Below the pieces are notes generated by a model that had not been told where the DNA came from, made no database searches, and worked only from the letters and a program-made list of their open reading frames with translations. From positions 40,001-104,000 of the forward strand of contig JAOARJ010000013.1 in assembly GCA_025210615.1 (NCBI GenBank): DNA of 64,000 nucleotides. The letters are read 5' to 3'. Origin of the DNA: Candidatus Altimarinota bacterium. GTDB taxonomy: Bacteria > Patescibacteriota > Gracilibacteria > BD1-5 > UBA6164. The translations under genes were made by a program, and so were the position numbers. Shown one piece after another: positions 6,656 through 48,082 of the stretch (the stretch's first letter is position 1; each line of letters opens with the position of its first letter).

Positions 6656-6827
6656 TTGAAAAATATTTTTAAAATAATAAGACTGCTAGATTATATTGAA
6701 AAAGCGTAAAATTCCAAATTTAAATTTTATTTAAAAATAAAAATCTTTTTTAGTAAAGAGAAAAGATTATTAGTGGTAAAAAATAAACATATTGACTTTT
6801 GTTAATATTTTTAAGGAGGATAAAGAT
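6656..6827. other. AT-rich divergent intergenic region
   Basis: 172 bases between typA (minus) and the short plus-strand gene at 6828. It must hold the typA promoter and leader, but I could not pick convincing boxes in such AT-rich sequence. A strong AAGGAGGA ribosome-binding site at 6813-6820 belongs to the plus-strand gene. No gene is seen. Confidence 0.5.
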
Positions 6828-7172
6828 ATGTGTATACGAGAAAAACTTGTATCTAATCGAAGTGGAGGTACCCACATTGAGAAAGATTACGAGTTAGTAG
6901 TCGATGGAGTTACTGCTCCTTATATTATGGAAGAGGTTGGGACAGTAGATGGTAGAAGGATTTTGGGAGTAAATATTACAACCCAGGCATGCCGATTCAC
7001 TCATGAAACAGGAGATGTTATTGCGGACTGGGGAGAATACGATGATGCATCGGATTTCCTTATGAGCCGAGGCTGGCTCCCACCGAAACTTCGGTTTTGG
7101 CGATGGTGGAGAAGACATAATATCCTTATTGTCCACTATTCCAGAAAAAATTCTTGGAACATGTGGACTTAA
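6828..7172 (+). CDS. Short foreign-looking gene (island A), unknown function
   Basis: 114 residues, no family recognised. The start at 6828 is chosen because AAGGAGGA lies 7 bases upstream; a longer frame back to a TTG at 6792 would put that ribosome-binding site inside the gene. The protein has an acidic middle and a strongly basic, Trp-rich C-terminal part (key residues FWRWWRR). Unlike neighbours it has no TGA codon, uses GGA, GGT, GGG and GGC for glycine, and has several CGA codons and one CGG, which are almost absent elsewhere in the window. Base composition is visibly richer in G+C. A G+C-rich terminator follows. These features suggest recent capture from a standard-code bacterium. If CGA and CGG mean Trp here, as reported for Absconditabacterales, the protein would be misread at those sites. 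Confidence 0.7.
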   Translation: MCIREKLVSNRSGGTHIEKDYELVVDGVTAPYIMEEVGTVDGRRILGVNITTQACRFTHETGDVIADWGEYDDASDFLMSRGWLPPKLRFWRWWRRHNILIVHYSRKNSWNMWT

Positions 7173-13905: not shown

Positions 13906-14769
13906 TTATCTTAAAAATGCGTATCAAGGTCAAGTTTCAGTTGATTTATGTAAAGTTGAAGAAGGCCGAGTTCAGTAGTTTGGAGGAGTATATCACAAAG
14001 AATAATCATAAATTCAACTATGATTGCTTGTTCAAAAGAATAATGTAATCCGTCTATGTTTTGTTCAAGAAAAAACTGAAAAATTATCTGCAGAACATCA
14101 TCATCAAGACCGACATCAAAAAGCGGTATTATCATTTATTTGTACATTTGATATTTGTATTGCCTCATCTGTTTGAGGGTGTTTAAATCTTAATTGAGTA
14201 GAAGTGTCTACAAACTCATTTACTAATGTTCAAGTAGGAGTTATAGCTGATAAATCTTTAAATTTAATTAATTCAGTACTACTTGTAGGAGTATTTCTAG
14301 TTGAAATTTTATCATGAGCATGTCAAATTTTAGCTACTAAAGTCCAACCTCATCAGTCAACAGTCATATCACAATATACCTGAAAAATATTTCAAGATTT
14401 TCATTTTAAATAATATGTTCAATCTCATTTATTTTTTGGAGTACCCAAAATATTTTTACAACTTGTTCCATCAATAATTTCTTTACAAGTTTTTGTTATA
14501 TTATCCCATTCTTTTCATTCGTCACAACTTCATAAACATTTTTTTTCTCATCAAATCACGCTACATAATTCTCAAGTTACGTATAACTTTCAATTTAATT
14601 TTATATCACTTTCAGATACATCTATTTTATCTGTTAAACTAGATATATTATTCCAAGTAGAATTATCTAATACTTCTCAAGAGTTTTTAGTAACAGTAAT
14701 AGCACTAATAAAATTAGATAAATATATTCAGCTTAATAATATTGATATAAGTAGTATAATTTTTTTCAT
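13906..14769 (-). CDS. Modular surface protein with fibrinogen-like C-terminal domain
   Basis: 287 residues. An N-terminal signal peptide is followed by a module (residues about 20-72) that is nearly identical to the one in the protein at 46696-47943: TKNSGEVLDNSTW, NISSLTDKIDV, IKLNGKLYVTGELC. A Cys-rich joint (GEKKCLGSC) leads to a domain with the fibrinogen C-terminal pattern: CKNILGTP, GTYYLKGKSGNIFQVYCDM, TVDGGGWTLVAKIGH. That domain usually binds glycans or proteins, so an adhesin role is inferred. Three rare CGG codons lie in the last 80 residues (reading C-x-SGGGC, KHR-x-ITLFF and GT-x-PSS). Secreted or anchored by its single N-terminal hydrophobic segment. Confidence 0.8.
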
Positions 14770-39474: not shown

Positions 39475-41322
39475 ATGAGCTCAAAAAAAGTATTTAAAAA
39501 TATTTTACTTATAATTCTAATCAGTCTAAATTTCTTTAATTTAGAATATTCTTTTGGTTTTAGTACAGATTATATGAAGGCCCAAGAAGCTGCAAGACAA
39601 CAAGCCGAAGCTGATAGACTTGCGAAAGAAAAACAAGCAGAGGCTGATAAACAAGCAGAACAAGAAAAAAAAGCTAGAGCTGATCAAGAAGCTGCAAATA
39701 AAGCTGCAGCTGATAAAGTAAAGGCAGATGCTCCAGCAAATGAGCAATTAGATACTCAAATCGGTATAGTAGATTCAGAAATAAAAGCTTTAAGAGAAAA
39801 ACATCCTGAAATTTGACAATTAGAAACACAAAAACAACAGTTAGAAGAAAAATTAAAAACTACAACTAGAGAATGAAGTGGAAAAGAAGTTATTAAATCT
39901 CAAATTGAAGAAGTTAATAATAAAATTAATAAAGTCCCTAGATTATGACAATTAGAGGAAAGAAAAAAAACTTTAGAGACAACAAAGCAAGAACTTGCTG
40001 ATTGAAAAAAAACACCAACTGAAGCTCAAATTACTGCAAAGAAAGTACAAAATGAAGTTGTAAAAGAACAAAAGGCTGTTAGTGATATAAATACTGCTAT
40101 AGTAAATGCTCAAAATGCACAAAATAAATTAGTTGCTTGAGGAAATGTAACTGTTAATGCAGATTGAACAATAAACGATCCTACTGGACAATATGCAGCA
40201 TCACAAGAATTAATTCAAAATTTACAAGCTAAAGCTGATTGATTTTCTGATGGTACAGTTACTTGAGAAAGTGTAATAACAGAAGCTACATCTTGAACAG
40301 CAAAAGCAGAAAATATAGCTAAGACTGAATCAAAACCTCTTATAAGTCCCAAAAACGCATCTGAAGCTCAAGCATGAAATTCAGAAGGAGTATCAAAATG
40401 AATGGCAGAGGTTCAAGGAGTTGTAGATGCAGCTGAAGCAGCAGTAAAAAATTTGAAAACATCAAAAGAAAATAATGAAAAAACTTTGAGTGAATTACAA
40501 GATACAGTTACAGAGACAGAAAGACAATATCAAGAAAATTTAGAAGCATATTGAGCAGGTGATCCAAGAACGGTACAATCTAAGAGTGCAGCGGAAGATG
40601 CTAAAGCAAACTTAAAAAATTTAGGAAAACCGTTACAAGATTCTATAAGGAAGACGGATACTGAACTAAAACAGGCTGAACAACTTCTTGAGGTTGCTAA
40701 GGATAGGAAACAAAAAACTGAAAAAAAATTTCAAGAAGATTCTCCAGAAGCATATGCTGAACATAAAATAAAAGAAAAATATAATGAACAAAGACAAGCA
40801 ATTATAGATGCAGATAAAAATTGAGAATTAGAGCCAGGACAAAAAGAAGATTTGTTAGGAAAATTAGAAAATGCATATGATGCAGTAGATAACTGAGAAG
40901 ACTGAGCTCAAGAAAAATTTAATAATGCGTTAAATGAGTTACAAAGACAAAAAATAGAAAATTATAAAGCAAAATGTAAAGAAAATTGAGATTGTCTTAC
41001 AGAAAGCTCTTTCATGATGAACACTAAATCTACTTTTTGACTTTGAAGTAAAACAGCTTGAAATAAATCAAGAACTACAGATGCAAAAGCGACAATTAAT
41101 TCTGTAATATGAAGAATTATCCAAAATTTAATGATAGCATTATGAAGTTTATCATTACTTATAATGACAGTTTGAGCTGGTTATATGATTCTTTATCATG
41201 GACAAGATGAATACTTGAGTAAATGAAAATGAATTTTTATGGCAGGTATAACTTCTCTTGTTATAGCACTTAGTTCATATATTTTGGTGGACCTAGTAAG
41301 ATATGTTTTATATTGAGGTTAA
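39475..41322 (+). CDS. Exported coiled-coil protein with C-terminal T4SS-pilin-like two-helix tail
   Basis: 615 residues. An N-terminal hydrophobic signal (NILLIILISLNFFNLEYSFG) leads into a long Ala/Lys/Glu/Gln-rich coiled coil (residues about 30-530), with a break of Gly/Thr-rich sequence near 220-300. The C-terminal 70 residues hold two hydrophobic helices around a short polar loop: IALGSLSLLIMTVGAGYMIL, HGQDEYLSKGK, ITSLVIALSSYILVDLVRYV. This matches the T4SS_pilin (VirB2-like) pattern common in CPR genomes, where a G-x-x-Y-x(4)-G-x-x-E-x(3)-KGK core lies between helices. The next three genes carry the same tail. A long fibre or stalk anchored in the membrane is inferred. Confidence 0.8.
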
Positions 41323-41348
41323 AATTTTATTTAAAAAATTAAGTTTTT

Positions 41349-42608
41349 ATGAAAAAAATTATAAAGAATATTAGTTTGTTATTTATTGGATTATATTTTA
41401 TATTATTTTCTAGTTTTGTTTTGGCGGAATATACTGCTAAAGAAAATATGCAATGGTATAATGAAAATGAAGCTAAATTTGATTCAAAAACTTTAGATAA
41501 TATTGCGGATTGATTAGTTGATACTCAGAAAATAACTTTAGGTCAAAAAAGTGAAATAAATAGTAAACAAAATCAATATGATACTTCTTGAGAAGTGACT
41601 TCTCATTGGTCTACTTATACAGCAGAAGTTAGAAAAACAATTGATTCGTCTAATACTGATTCATCATCTCCTTGAATGTATACCTGATGAGACTCGGATA
41701 GTAGTTCTTCTTGATGAAGTAATGGAGGATCTAGTAGTGGTTCTTCAGTAGATTTATCAAGTTGAAAAAAATCTTGAGATAATGAAAATGAATGAGAAAA
41801 AAAATGAAGTTCTTGAATTGGTAAAGACAGTTCAACAAATTGAGGTTGAAATGATACTTGAAATTCTGCGTGAAAATGAGATACCACACCTTGATGATGA
41901 GCTTGAAAAGATTGACAACAAAAATGAAGTGAGCAAACAAATGGTAATACTAAAGATTGACAAACTTCTGGAAACTGATGAAAAGAATGAGAAGAACAAG
42001 GAAAAGACTGATGAACAACTCCTTGAAAATCAAATTGAGATAGTGGAGATTGATGAGCTGGTTGATGAGATGCTACACCTTGAGATTGAACAACACAATG
42101 AGATTCTCAAAATGGACAAAACTGAGCAAGTTGAAATACGGGTAGTAGCTTGTCTTGAAGTTGAACATCAGGAAGTGCCTGAGCTAATGGTGGTAATTCT
42201 TGATGATGAAACTGAAATTGAGATTCAAGTTGAGGTTGAAATTGAATAAAAACAGAAGAAGGAAATCCAAATGTACCAGAAATAAATTGTTTCTGACTTC
42301 CTGGTTGTGAAATCACCGAAGGAACAGATTCTTCAAGCACTAATAAAGTTACATGATTTTTATGAAATCTAGTTTCAAAATTAATTTCATATGCTATAGC
42401 TATTTGAGTTATTGCTATAATGATAGCTTGATGAATGTATATGACCTCTGCTTGAGATGATGAAAAAGCGAATAAAGCGAGAAAATGGATAACTTGGATT
42501 CTAACTTGAGTAGTAGCCTCAATGCTAGCATTTGCTGTTATTAATATGATAGATAACTTGGTTATTAATCTAGATTGAAATTCTCCACCAATAGAAAATG
42601 AAAGATAA
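41349..42608 (+). CDS. Exported Gly-rich protein with T4SS-pilin-like tail
   Basis: 419 residues. A signal peptide (LLFIGLYFILFSSFVLA) is followed by about 90 ordinary residues and a low-complexity Gly/Ser/Asp/Asn/Lys region (about 113-297), in which most glycines are TGA; by hand count the gene has about 60 TGA and about 21 GGN glycine codons. A Cys-containing joint (NCFGLPGCEIT) leads to the two-helix tail: IGVIAIMIAGGMYMTSAGDD, EKANKARKWITWILTGVV, ASMLAFAVINMIDNLV. The tail fits the CPR T4SS pilin consensus very well. A flexible, hydrophilic surface filament or spacer is inferred. Ordinary-code reading would break the gene into dozens of pieces. Confidence 0.82.
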
Positions 42609-42628
42609 TATAAACTTAATTAAAAATT

Positions 42629-43015
42629 ATGAAAAAATTATATTTATACATAATAGTTTTTATAAGCTCTTTTTATAGCTTAGTTAGTTTTGCTAAAAAT
42701 GGGGATACAAGTCTTATTGAAAAAATGAGTCCTAAATGAAAATCTATTGTGAAAGTAACACCCTCTACAACATGAGAAGATTGACTTAGTGCGTTAGATA
42801 ATTTGCTAAATATTATTAGAGATATCATGTTTGGTATATTACCAACTTTTGCAGTACTTGTTTTTCTTTTTATCTGAGCAAAATTATTTATGGCTAGATG
42901 AAATCAAGAAGAATTTAAAAAATCGCTTATGTGGTTTGTATATGCGGCTGTTTGAATGGCTATTATTCCACTTGCTTGGTGAGTTATAAAATTATTAACA
43001 ACTATTACTCTTTAG
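42629..43015 (+). CDS. T4SS-pilin-like small membrane protein
   Basis: 128 residues: signal peptide (YIIVFISSFYSLVSFA), a short linker, and the two-helix module GILPTFAVLVFLFIGAKLFM, ARGNQEEFKKSLMW, FVYAAVGMAIIPLAWGVIK. This is close to a bare VirB2/TrbC-type pilin. It lies 20 bases after the Gly-rich gene and 18 before the next pilin-like gene. Confidence 0.8.
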
Positions 43016-43033
43016 TTATCTAAATATAAAATT

Positions 43034-43465
43034 ATGAAAAAATTTTTGATTTTAATTACATTATTTTTAATATTATTATGAGGATTCTTTAGTTTTTTTA
43101 ATAATAATGTTTTGGCAGCTAGTAAATTAGATAAAGATTTAGAAAAATCTGTCTCAGAATTATTAAAAGACTATACTCCAAATAAAGTAGTAAAAACAGA
43201 AAAAGATGATACAACTGTAAATGTATGACTAAAAGACCTTATTTCAACTTTAGTTACAAATTTATCTTTGTTATTATGAATCGCTGCTATTTGAGCAGTT
43301 GCTTATTGAGGTATAACAATAATAATAAGTGCTTGAGAAGATGAATGAGTTACTAAATGAAAAAGCATTATAAAATGGGCTGTATTATGATTTGTTTGAT
43401 TAGTATCAGCTTCAGGACTTATAACTCTAGTTATAAATATTATGTATTGATTAGCCTCGACTTAA
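43034..43465 (+). CDS. T4SS-pilin-like small membrane protein
   Basis: 143 residues: signal peptide (LILITLFLILLGGFFSFF with cleavage after LAA), a 45-residue polar segment, then LGIAAIGAVAYGGITIIISA, GEDEGVTKGKSIIKW and AVLGFVGLVSASGLITLVI. It is the clearest VirB2-like member of the four, with the Y-G-G...S-A-G-x-x-E...KGK pattern. It is 10 bases upstream of the metalloprotease gene, so the five genes from 39475 probably form one transcript. Confidence 0.82.
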
Positions 43466-43475
43466 TTAGAAAAAT

Positions 43476-44450
43476 ATGATGAAAAAACTAAAATTATTTA
43501 TTTCACTTGTGATTATTTTTACTGCCATAATTTTTTATGCGGATTTATTCCTGTCAGAAAAACAAGAACAAACAGATTTTGATACTAATGTGGAAAAAAT
43601 AAAAAAAGTATCTTCTCCAATTTCAGAAGAAAGGCTTAATAAAGCTAGAGAAAAAATGAGAGAAAGACTAGCTCAAATTAGGGAAGAAGAAAAAAATACT
43701 CCAAATTTAGACTCAGCGAATCAAAATAATAATCAAGAAGATATAAAAAATACAAAAAATAATAGTGAAAATATTAAAAAAACAGAAGAAAAAGTAGAAA
43801 AAACAGAACAAAAAAGCCATAATTTTGAAATAAATTATATTTTAGAAGATTATGAAAATACATTAAGTAATCTAAGGAAATTTTCCCTAGAAAGTATTCT
43901 AATAAGCCATTTATTTAATAATAAAGTCAATAATTTAATCACTGATTTAATAGAAGCAAAAGAAGAGGTTAGATGAAAAATGAAAAATTGAGCGATATTA
44001 ATGTTTGCTCCACATTTGCTTAAAAATGAGGAATTTATCAGCGTTTTTATTCATGAATTAGGGCATTTTGTTGATTTATATTATTTAAGAAAATGATATT
44101 TTTGAGACGCTAGTAATAAATTTTATGACATAAGTTGGAAATCTACAAAAATTTTAAAGTCATGAAATGGACAAAAAGATTTTGTATCAGGATACGCTAT
44201 GACAAATAAATATGAAGATTTTGCTGAAAGTTTTGAATTTTTTATTTTGCATAATAAAGATTTTCTAAAAAAAGCTCAAAACAGCAGTAAATTAATGAAA
44301 AAGTATGAATTTTTTGAAGAACATATTTTTGTTTCTGGAGAATTTAAAAATTCTAATTTTTGAGAAAATGAATTTAAAGAAGATATTTGGGATACTACAA
44401 AATTAGAAATAAGTGAAAAAAAGTTTTTGAATTATATAAAAAATAATTAA
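43476..44450 (+). CDS. Membrane-anchored HExxH zinc metalloprotease-like protein
   Basis: 324 residues. An N-terminal signal anchor (LFISLVIIFTAIIFYADLF) is followed by a coiled, charged linker (residues 30-120) and a peptidase-like domain. VFIHELGHFVDLYYLRKGYF contains HELGH at residues 193-197, the gluzincin-type zinc site; YEDFAESFEFFILHN about 50 residues later offers the third ligand (Glu in FAES). The layout resembles anthrax-toxin lethal-factor-like or other small secreted zincins. The active site would be outside the cell. Placed directly after four pilin-like genes, it may process or degrade surface proteins of its own system or of a host; this is inference. Confidence 0.78.
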
Positions 44451-44658: not shown

Positions 44659-46656
44659 ATGCAAGATTTTTTTGATGAATTAAACTCTGAATTATCAGAT
44701 AAAAACAACAACAATAATACTAATAATAATCAAGACAATACTTCTGAAAATCCTGAAATTTCTAGAGAAGAACAAAAAAAAGAAGTTCAAATTCCTTTGA
44801 CTTTTGATCCAAATAAGTCTAATCCTTATATAAAAACTAAATTTAAATTTAATCAAAATAGTAATAATAACGCCAACAATAATCAAAACACTAACTATAA
44901 AACTAATAACAATAGAAATAATTATAATTCAAGAAATAATACAAATAACGGAAATTATTCTATAAAAGACTCTATGCAAAATAATTTTCCTGAAACTAGA
45001 TTTTATTTGCCTTTATTAAGAGATGAATCGACAAGAGTTGTATTTTTATGATGAAATAATGAAGTCGGGAAAAATATGACAGTTTATCAATATGAAGATG
45101 ATTTAATAATTGTTGATGCTGGATTACAAAAAAATGAATCTGGAGTCTTACAAAAAAAATATTCTATCCCTGATATTTCTTTTTTAATCCCTATTAAACA
45201 AAAAATAAAAGGATTATTTATTACAAATGCTTTAGTAGAAAACGCTTGAGCACTTCCACAAATATTGAAACCATTATGATGTCCTGATTTATACTGAAAT
45301 AAAATCACAATAGAATTATTAAAAGTTTTAATTAAGGATAATGAAATTTTAGAAAAAACTAACTTTATAGAAATTTCTGATGGAGAGACTGTAGAATGTG
45401 GAAAATTTAAAGTAACGCCTATTGTAAGCGATGATACTAAATCGTTAACAATGTATAATATTGTTTCTCCAAAACTAAATATTATTCATACTTGAAGTTA
45501 TAAAATTACTGAAAATTTAAAACAAAAATTAGAGAATTACAGAGGAAAGACTGATTTATTAGTTAATGAATCTTCTTCTAGTTTTAAAAAAGCTCCGTTT
45601 TTTTCTAAATATAATATTGAAGAAAATTTAAAGAAAATCTTAAGAAATAAAAAATCGAGAACATTTATATTAACTCCCTATCCGCTTATAACAAGGCTTG
45701 CTCCTATTGTAGAAGAAGCCGAAAAATTATGAAAAACTATTTTGGTTTTATGAAAAGATTTAGGAGATATTGTTTCAGCAGGAGAAAGATTATGACTATT
45801 TCCTGAATGAAAAGTGAAAAAATATAATCCAAATATTACAGAAAATTTAGAAGATAATGAACAAGTTATTCTAGTTTGATGAAATATTGATGATAAATTT
45901 TCTCAAATAAATAAAATTATAGATTGAACTAATTATAATATTGCTTTTGAAAGATGAGATAGTTTGGTTGTACCTCCTTATGAATTACAAAATGATGCTA
46001 GTTTAAGAGTATTAAATAGATTATTCTTTGAAGGAGTGAATATTATAACAAATACTTTCTTAGATCCTAGGCAAGCGAGTATAGCTTGAAAAGAAGAACA
46101 ACAAGAGCTTATAAAGGTTTTAGAACCAAAAAATATAGCGCCTTATGGTACACATTCTTTACATAGAAATGTAGCTCAAGTATGAATTTTAGAAACAGGA
46201 TTTGCTAAAGAAAATATAGTGCAAAATAACGATTGAGAAATTATAGATGTAGATAATACTGCGAGTGTTTTTAAATCTAGAATTAGAGTTCCTGTACAAG
46301 AAATTTTAGTAGATTGATTTGGTATTTGATTAGCAACAAGTCATATTATCAAAGCAAGAGAAAATATGATGGACGGATGAGTTTTAGTTGCTATTTTCCC
46401 AGTAGACTCAAATACTAGAACAATAGTTTGACCTATAAGACTTGAAACTAGATGATTTGTTTATCTTGATGAAGTTCGTCTTATGCATAAAGTTTTGATT
46501 AAAAAAGCTAGAAATGTTTTTGAAAATACACTTCAAGATGTACCTGAAATAGAAGATAAAGATTTAATAAAAATTATAAAGACAGATTTAGAATCTTATG
46601 TCTTAAAAACTGTTAATAGGGAGCCTATGGTAATTCCTGTTATAGTAAATATGTAA
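44659..46656 (+). CDS. Catalytically inactive RNase J family protein
   Basis: 665 residues. An Asn-rich low-complexity tail (residues 17-100) precedes a full RNase J fold: FLGGNNEVGKNMTVYQYEDD, IVDAGL, SIPDISFL, GKFKVTP, then the beta-CASP part (RTFILTPYPLITRLAPIVEE, ERLGLFPEG) and C-terminal domain (GLATSHIIKARENMMDGGVL, GFVYLDEVRLMHKVLIKKAR). Every metal-binding motif is lost. The HGHEDH loop reads ITNALVENAGALP (residues about 187-199); the next His motif (THSIPDS in active enzymes) reads IVSDDTK; TGDFK reads TGSYK (about 278); the Asp of LLSDST is Asn/Glu (LVNESS); the C-terminal GHAS/HGE histidines are also replaced (PYGTHSLHR). It should not cut RNA by this site. RNA binding or a scaffold role with an active partner is possible. 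Confidence 0.88.
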
Positions 46657-46695: not shown

Positions 46696-47943
46696 TTATG
46701 GGCGGACTATAAACCTTGCTGAATAATAACCATTACGACCACCTGTGCTATATCCCCATTGTTCTGAACAGCCTCCACCATTCATAGTACGAGCTCCCCG
46801 TCACCATTTAGTTCCATCAACATAACCAACTGCAGAAAGCCATATTTTTTCAGCATTAGTTTTATCATTTGAATCAGTTAGAAAAGGAGTATTTTTATCT
46901 TCTCATTCACAAGCCATTTGATATTCTCATCTAGTATTTCATGTTAAATTATTTCAATCTGAAATATAACTAAATGCACTTGGGAGATGACTTCAAGGTT
47001 TTTGGGTCCAAGCTGTTAGATATTTTTGTCTATTTTGATAAGTAATATTATTAAAATCTTTTGTATCTGTATTAGCAGTAACATCTGTCTTGTATTGTTC
47101 ATAAGAGATTGTTTCATTTTTAGTTTTATCTGGATGATGTTTATATTCCATATCCTCTCATAAATCTTTTACTCAATCTATACAGTCAGCTATATAAATG
47201 GCTGGAATAGCGTGTCAATTTACCGTTGTCAATAATGTGTTTGTATCATTTACTGTTATCCAATTTATACTTTTAGCTTGAGTGTAATTATTTCAAGTTC
47301 ATGCTAACCATTGCATTCTTCAGGTTATAGTATCTTCAGCATTAGAATCATTATTTTTTGATGTTCACAATGGCCTGCAAGAATATGGTATTGGACTATT
47401 TGCTACATGTGTTAGATTTTTGGTTTGTCACATGTCTGGACGAGAATTTCATGTATCATCTATTGTTTTAGAGTCTAATAAAACTGATGGATTCCATCCA
47501 TTTACATAAGTTGCAGTATTATTTCACCAACCATTCCAAGAAATTCATCAGGTTCAATTTGTGGCGTCACTATTCCAATCTCAAAATCTAGGGGAAATAC
47601 AGAATCAATCTCATTTAGCACTTCAAATATAAACGTCATTATCTTTATCTACCCACATCCATCAGGCTTCATTTTCACAAGAATTTTTGTCTATTATTTT
47701 TTTTCTTAAACATTTTTTTTCTCATCAAACCTCACTACATAGTTCTCAAGTCACATATAATTTTCAATTTAATTTTATATCAGTTCAAGATACATCTATT
47801 TTATTAGTTAAACTAGAAATATTACTCCAAGTAGTATTATCTAAAACTTCTCAAGAGTTTTTAGTTATGGAAATCGCTCAAATAAAATTCACTAAATATA
47901 TTCAGCTAAAAATTAGGCTTAAAAATAATATAAATTTCTTCAT
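46696..47943 (-). CDS. Modular surface protein sharing its N-terminal module with 13906-14769
   Basis: 415 residues. Signal peptide, then the shared module (TKNSGEVLDNTTW, NISSLTNKIDV, IKLNGKLYVTGELC, GEKKCL), after which it diverges from its paralogue. Residues about 85-415 are Trp/Gly/Asn-rich with many Cys and end in GGGCSEQWGYSTGGRNGYYS-type sequence and ARFIVRP. This part resembles exported sulfatase-modifying-like or Fibrobacter-type 'major paralogous' domains (C-terminal R-F-x-V-R-P), but the family is not certain. One CGG codon occurs in KWG-x-GARTMNG. An adhesin or ligand-binding protein of the cell surface is inferred. Confidence 0.75.
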
Positions 47944-48082
47944 AATTTTCAAAAAATTATTTAATAATTAAAGCGATTATAATATTTTTTATATATAAAA
48001 TCAAGTTTTAATTTTTTATTTTATTGCTAAATCTTAAAAAATAATTAAAATCTGAATAATTAAATACTATAAACAAAACTTT

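Follow-up and report, generated by a model that had tools for sequence, protein, structure and literature searches.

An RNase J homolog without catalytic residues, kept beside a second, intact RNase J in a Gracilibacteria genome: a probable noncatalytic subunit

The stretch of DNA analyzed here (64,000 nucleotides, hereafter the window) carries a gene for a homolog of ribonuclease J (RNase J) in which the motifs of the active site are replaced. This raises the question of what such a protein, here called P0001, could still be doing in the cell, and of why its lineage would keep it.

Gene, fold, and active site of P0001

The host genome (G000; 1.25 Mb in 16 contigs) has genes whose reading frames stay open only when TGA codes for glycine, which is the code of Gracilibacteria and SR1, and orthologs of its native RNase J in public records come from Candidatus Gracilibacteria metagenome-assembled genomes. 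Under the standard code the P0001 gene appears broken, but this is an artefact, as reading TGA as glycine restores the frame. The features of the gene and its surroundings, in window coordinates, are as follows.

44659..46656, + strand: P0001, a native RNase J that is now a pseudoenzyme (665 aa in code 25, with 22 in-frame TGA codons read as glycine)
44659..44706, + strand: N-terminal helix motif MQDFFDELNSEL, residues 1-16 (consensus MxDF[FL]xELDxEL; predicted helix 2-16)
44707..44979, + strand: Asn-rich disordered linker, residues 17-107 (pLDDT <50)
45016..45648, + strand: metallo-beta-lactamase (MBL) part 1, residues 120-330, fold kept without the ligands (32/66 invariant positions kept)
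45226..45243, + strand: NALVEN replacing HxHxDH, residues 190-195 (ortholog alignment)
45433..45435, + strand: D259 replacing ligand H142 (ortholog alignment)
45490..45504, + strand: TGSYK replacing TGDFK, D164 to S280 (ortholog alignment)
45559..45576, + strand: LVNESS replacing L(L/M)SDST, D195 to E304 (ortholog alignment)
45649..46023, + strand: beta-CASP domain, residues 331-455, the most diverged part (12/39 invariant positions kept; branch of 5.4 substitutions per site)
46063..46089, + strand: DPRQASIAG replacing (D/E)xHTxGHA, with H364 and H368 lost (ortholog alignment)
46315..46653, + strand: RNase J C-terminal domain (CTD), residues 553-665, with TRGFVYL and MVIPVI conserved (PF17770, 46.7 bits; 35/38 invariant positions kept)
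39475..44450, + strand: upstream block marking the ancestral native locus, with T4SS-pilin-like ORFs and a putative metallopeptidase (homologs at the native loci of families f1 and f2, defined below)

Elsewhere in the window, a 126-aa ORF at 6792-7172 (+) is open in the standard code, has a G+C content of 40% compared with 26% for the window, and is rich in tryptophan (TGG is rare elsewhere); it may be a foreign insert, and no Rfam match was found in this interval.

The preliminary description of this locus had claimed a complete fold from the MBL domain to the CTD, and family searches and modeling back this. TIGR00649 matches residues 127-662 of P0001 with 246 bits, under its 400-bit cut-off; the CTD match to PF17770 (RNase_J_C) clears a cut-off of 23.8 bits; and the top sequence match in the PDB is Bacillus subtilis RNase J1 (3zq4, E value of 3e-54, residues 120-664). 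An AlphaFold2 model built from a 43-sequence alignment has a pTM of 0.67, with most of the core at a pLDDT of 80 to 95, a helix at residues 2-16, and a disordered tail extending to residue 107. Among solved structures, the B. subtilis J1-J2 model 9a5v and RNase J1 3zq4 come nearest to this model (E values of 1e-43 to 2e-48), and CPSF73 and the IntS4-9-11 cleavage module are also among the fold matches. P0001 is therefore predicted to have the complete MBL, beta-CASP, and CTD fold, with homology to RNase J along its whole length.

The claim that all catalytic motifs and ligands are replaced was confirmed by an ortholog alignment and by mapping residues onto B. subtilis J1, and each motif (NALVEN, TGSYK, LVNESS, the lost second His motif, and the lost C-terminal histidines) proved to be changed as described. 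H74, H76, D78, and H79 of J1 correspond to N190, L192, E194, and N195 of P0001; H142, D164, and D195 to D259, S280, and E304; and H364 and H368 to R471 and I475, with H390 opposite G497. The metal ligands (HxHxDH, H142, D164, and H390) are thus all replaced, placing P0001 outside the definition of a catalytic RNase J, and the 5'-phosphate pocket and substrate loops (SSSPIPGN, GSQGE, the FAS loop, H364, and H368) are gone as well. The change at H390 is not special, because most otherwise intact native enzymes of P0001's own family have Tyr or Phe at this position; enzymes of the second type described below have Tyr. Ligands shifted elsewhere in the alignment were also sought, and with at least 35 orthologs aligned no alternative HxHxDH, His, or Asp was found at neighboring positions. 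Judged from these alignments, P0001 has lost the residues essential for catalysis.

A second RNase J and the fate of the native gene

A second, intact RNase J gene, which the preliminary description had suggested looking for, is present on contig C7 (G000:C7:16199-18223). Its product, P0002 (675 aa, 30 TGA codons), is the only other RNase J homolog of the genome, shares 25% identity with P0001, and has the motifs HGHIDH, DHSIP, TGDWK, LLSDST, and IHAGGH intact. The genes for P0001 and P0002 are on separate contigs and are not paired. We considered contamination of the bin by C7 and found it unlikely, as this contig and the window are alike in their use of TGA for glycine, G+C content, and gene families. 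In a class-wide RNase J tree, enzymes of the P0002 type group with those of f19 and f16 (both from other orders) and native ones with those of f13, at full or near-full support, and P0002 branches outside all members of its type from f2, the sister family; a BipA tree places G000 itself within its own family, f1 (support of 94). P0002 thus comes from a separate deep lineage, and P0001, by the gene order described below, is the original housekeeping RNase J at its ancestral locus, which sets aside the model of a duplicate pair of the J1/J2 kind. On these sequence relationships the second enzyme was most likely gained by horizontal transfer, possibly in one older acquisition with later losses.

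One secreted protein family has a copy adjoining the dead RNase J and another adjoining the active one. Its members (window 13906-14769 [-] and 46696-47952 [-]; L099 7214-8089 [-]) have an N-terminal segment in common, TVTKNSGEVLDN(S/T)TW.NISSLT.KIDVS..DIKLNGKLYVTG, and differ in their C-terminal parts; two carry a fibrinogen-like DGGGWT motif.

We compared 77 genomes of the order from three families, f1 (that of G000), f2 (its sister), and f3. G000 is the sole genome with a second RNase J among the 48 of f1; the other 47 have the native enzyme alone, with all motifs seen intact in 45, a partly assembled gene in G024, and a split gene in G025. The native gene is intact in both f3 genomes and in three f2 genomes (G041, G054, and G063). 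A second enzyme about 50 to 55% identical to P0002 is present in 23 of the 27 f2 genomes, and in 22 of these the native gene is trimmed and lacks the catalytic motifs. The remaining genome, G062, has the P0002-type gene at the very start of a contig, and its sister G038 has the trimmed gene exactly there. Across the order, a second enzyme accompanies a motif-less native gene in 23 genomes (G000 and 22 of f2), and a motif-intact native gene occurs without a second enzyme in 52 (50 full length, G024 partial, and G025 split); in G042 (f2, 93% complete) neither RNase J type was found. A search of GTDB contigs recovered no close relatives of P0001.

Two native loci show irregularities of their own. 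The RNase J of G025 (L098 4711-6671) occupies two overlapping frames, reflecting either a real frameshift or an assembly error, in a genome with no second enzyme, and G039 of f3 has two similar RNase J copies (L091 1-1317 and L090 4220-6322) with their visible motifs intact, the second of which runs off its contig.

The trimmed native genes of f2, which we call D, encode proteins whose length from the probable start is about 165 to 520 aa. Those of genus g24 consist of the N-terminal motif (MNDFFTELDSDL), a linker, and a CTD 47 to 52% identical to that of P0001; most others retain an MBL remnant but no recognizable beta-CASP domain, and Pfam searches of three D proteins matched RNase_J_C alone. 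Homologs of the block at 39475-44450 immediately precede P0001, the f1 and f2 native genes, and the D genes, and because of this shared upstream block we treat all of these RNase J genes as positional orthologs; by this evidence both P0001 and D represent the native RNase J, eroded to different degrees. D immediately precedes the second RNase J gene, in the same orientation, in 15 of 15 contigs carrying both, which represent most f2 genera, and in g24 and G000 the second gene is unlinked to the native locus. In the CTD tree P0001 falls among the native genes of f1, and a common origin with all D proteins was weakly rejected (AU test, P = 0.046 against a clade of P0001 and D; P = 0.088 against a clade of P0001 and g24 D). 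Tree and tests therefore favor, but do not prove, two inactivations.

What is conserved, and a probable role

Invariant positions were defined as those conserved in at least 97% of 35 native orthologs of the order. P0001 keeps 35 of 38 such positions in the CTD (92%) and 3 of 3 in the N-terminal motif, whereas the core keeps 56 of 129 (43%; 32/66 in the N-terminal MBL part, 12/39 in beta-CASP, and 12/24 in the C-terminal MBL part), a difference between CTD and core with a Fisher P value of 3e-8. In leave-one-out controls, active orthologs keep at least 84% of the core-invariant positions, compared with 31 to 50% by region in P0001. With the topology fixed, the P0001 branch has a length of 3.04 (core), 5.4 (beta-CASP), and 0.53 (CTD) substitutions per site; the next-longest tips are 0.27 and 0.30. 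Identity to the native orthologs of f1 and f2 is 54 to 65% in the CTD and 32 to 39% in the core. The loss at invariant positions is far above chance, and the distribution of these changes indicates that P0001 has not diverged by random decay. Selection for a noncatalytic role, as proposed in the preliminary description, is supported by the conserved CTD and N-terminal motif, where selection is read from long-term conservation rather than from dN/dS, P0001's genus being represented by one genome.

The motif MxDF[FL]xELDxEL occurs in nearly all native enzymes with a visible start, in P0001, and in the D proteins of g24 and g29; it is altered to IFGDSDDITFG in other D proteins and absent from P0002-type enzymes, and within G000 its DNA match is to P0001 only. 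The Asn-rich N-terminal tail had been taken for an addition, but the tails of active orthologs are about as long and begin with the same helix motif. P0002 is also Asn-rich, and the richness in Asn fits the local G+C content of about 20%.

We propose, with a probability of roughly 0.6, that the acquired RNase J replaced the native enzyme in catalysis and that the native protein was kept as a noncatalytic subunit, probably acting as an adaptor or in a heteromer. G000 would have obtained P0002, a catalytically intact enzyme from another deep RNase J lineage, after which the vertically inherited P0001 would have lost catalysis and substrate binding and persisted through its CTD and N-terminal helix. 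Through these parts the native protein would link the acquired nuclease to partners recognized by the lineage's own RNase J, by forming a heteromer with P0002, by serving as an adaptor to a degradosome protein (RNase Y is a candidate), or both; an RNase Y gene is located on the same contig as P0001 (G000:C6:10943-12442). We infer both the physical interaction between P0001 and P0002 and the adaptor function from sequence comparisons, in which nearly all sequences come from metagenome-assembled genomes. A broader formulation, which we advance tentatively and at somewhat less than even odds, is that a horizontally acquired homolog made the resident enzyme an obligate noncatalytic subunit, probably at least twice in the order, which was then whittled down to helix and CTD. 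Our literature search found no published account of such an RNase J pair in Gracilibacteria.

The native protein might instead not be a partner of the second RNase J at all, its CTD and helix keeping an older, separate function such as membrane or ribosome scaffolding. The single f19 genome examined has an RNase J of the P0002 lineage with an already degenerate CTD signature and no D protein; this lineage therefore has no intrinsic need of a partner. An independent scaffold function is thus conceivable, and the lack of linkage between the two genes in g24 and G000 points the same way. The CTD of Streptococcus mutans J2 binds RNase Y, DnaJ, and FtsZ (PMC6759994). We nonetheless regard a separate function as unlikely, since catalytic loss is confined to genomes with the second enzyme and D adjoins that enzyme in most f2 genera. 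The f19 relative, whose CTD is equally degenerate without D, also weakens a strict complementary degeneration, in which P0001 supplies the CTD signature that P0002 has lost.

Lineage-specific decay, in which a redundant gene with no present function is being lost, appears improbable. The f2 homologs are progressively shorter, and the intact motifs of close relatives, which the preliminary description had named as a possible sign of local decay, are indeed found in the other f1 genomes. Simple decay does not follow, however, because the CTD and N-terminal motif are conserved nearly as well as in active enzymes and because the same fate befell the gene in most of f2. The frame of 665 codons is moreover open despite a core divergence of about 3 substitutions per site, and D is kept in 22 of 23 f2 genomes, the exception being the contig break in G062. 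About equally improbable is a regulatory decoy that lowers RNase J activity through inactive mixed dimers: P0001 retains the full fold and the CTD, but it no longer has the residues for binding RNA and the 5'-phosphate, and in f2 most of the MBL/beta-CASP core has been deleted, so that the core is not the selected part.

Under the proposed displacement, catalysis was deleted, and in relatives the catalytic domains too, while CTD and helix were kept; these parts would therefore matter alone or for another nuclease. What the RNase J CTD does beyond dimerization is the question that this series addresses, and its members (intact native, full-length dead, trimmed, and CTD only) are a ready set of constructs for it. 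If the reading is correct, the series is a natural experiment separating RNase J catalysis from scaffolding, and shows that horizontal displacement can leave the resident enzyme in place, apparently in a scaffolding role, instead of eliminating it.

Comparison with known systems

An inactive MBL/beta-CASP homolog is paired with an active one in CPSF100 with CPSF73 and in IntS9 with IntS11. Those pairs are eukaryotic, derive from duplication, and keep their catalytic domains, whereas the lineage of P0001 and D sheds them. P0001 is like RNase J1 (TIGR00649) in domain order, alignment along the whole length, and predicted fold, and unlike it in having no catalytic motif and in scoring below the family cut-off. 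The CTD of RNase J1 governs oligomerization or dimerization and the balance of exo- and endonuclease activity, and RNase J2 has no HxHxDH but still possesses the monophosphate site, depends on metal, and shows residual activity (PMC7864078). J1 and J2 form stable heterodimers, and in S. mutans other proteins bind to the CTD of J2 (PMC6759994). P0001 resembles the RNase J2 of Firmicutes in being without the HxHxDH signature beside an active RNase J in the same genome; unlike RNase J2, it has lost its phosphate-site residues and all ligands, it and P0002 come from separate deep lineages and are not a pair of paralogs, and its relatives have lost most or all of their catalytic domains. The preliminary description's characterization of P0001 as J2-like but more extreme therefore stands, with an intact second RNase J present and both the ligands and the phosphate pocket of P0001 lost.
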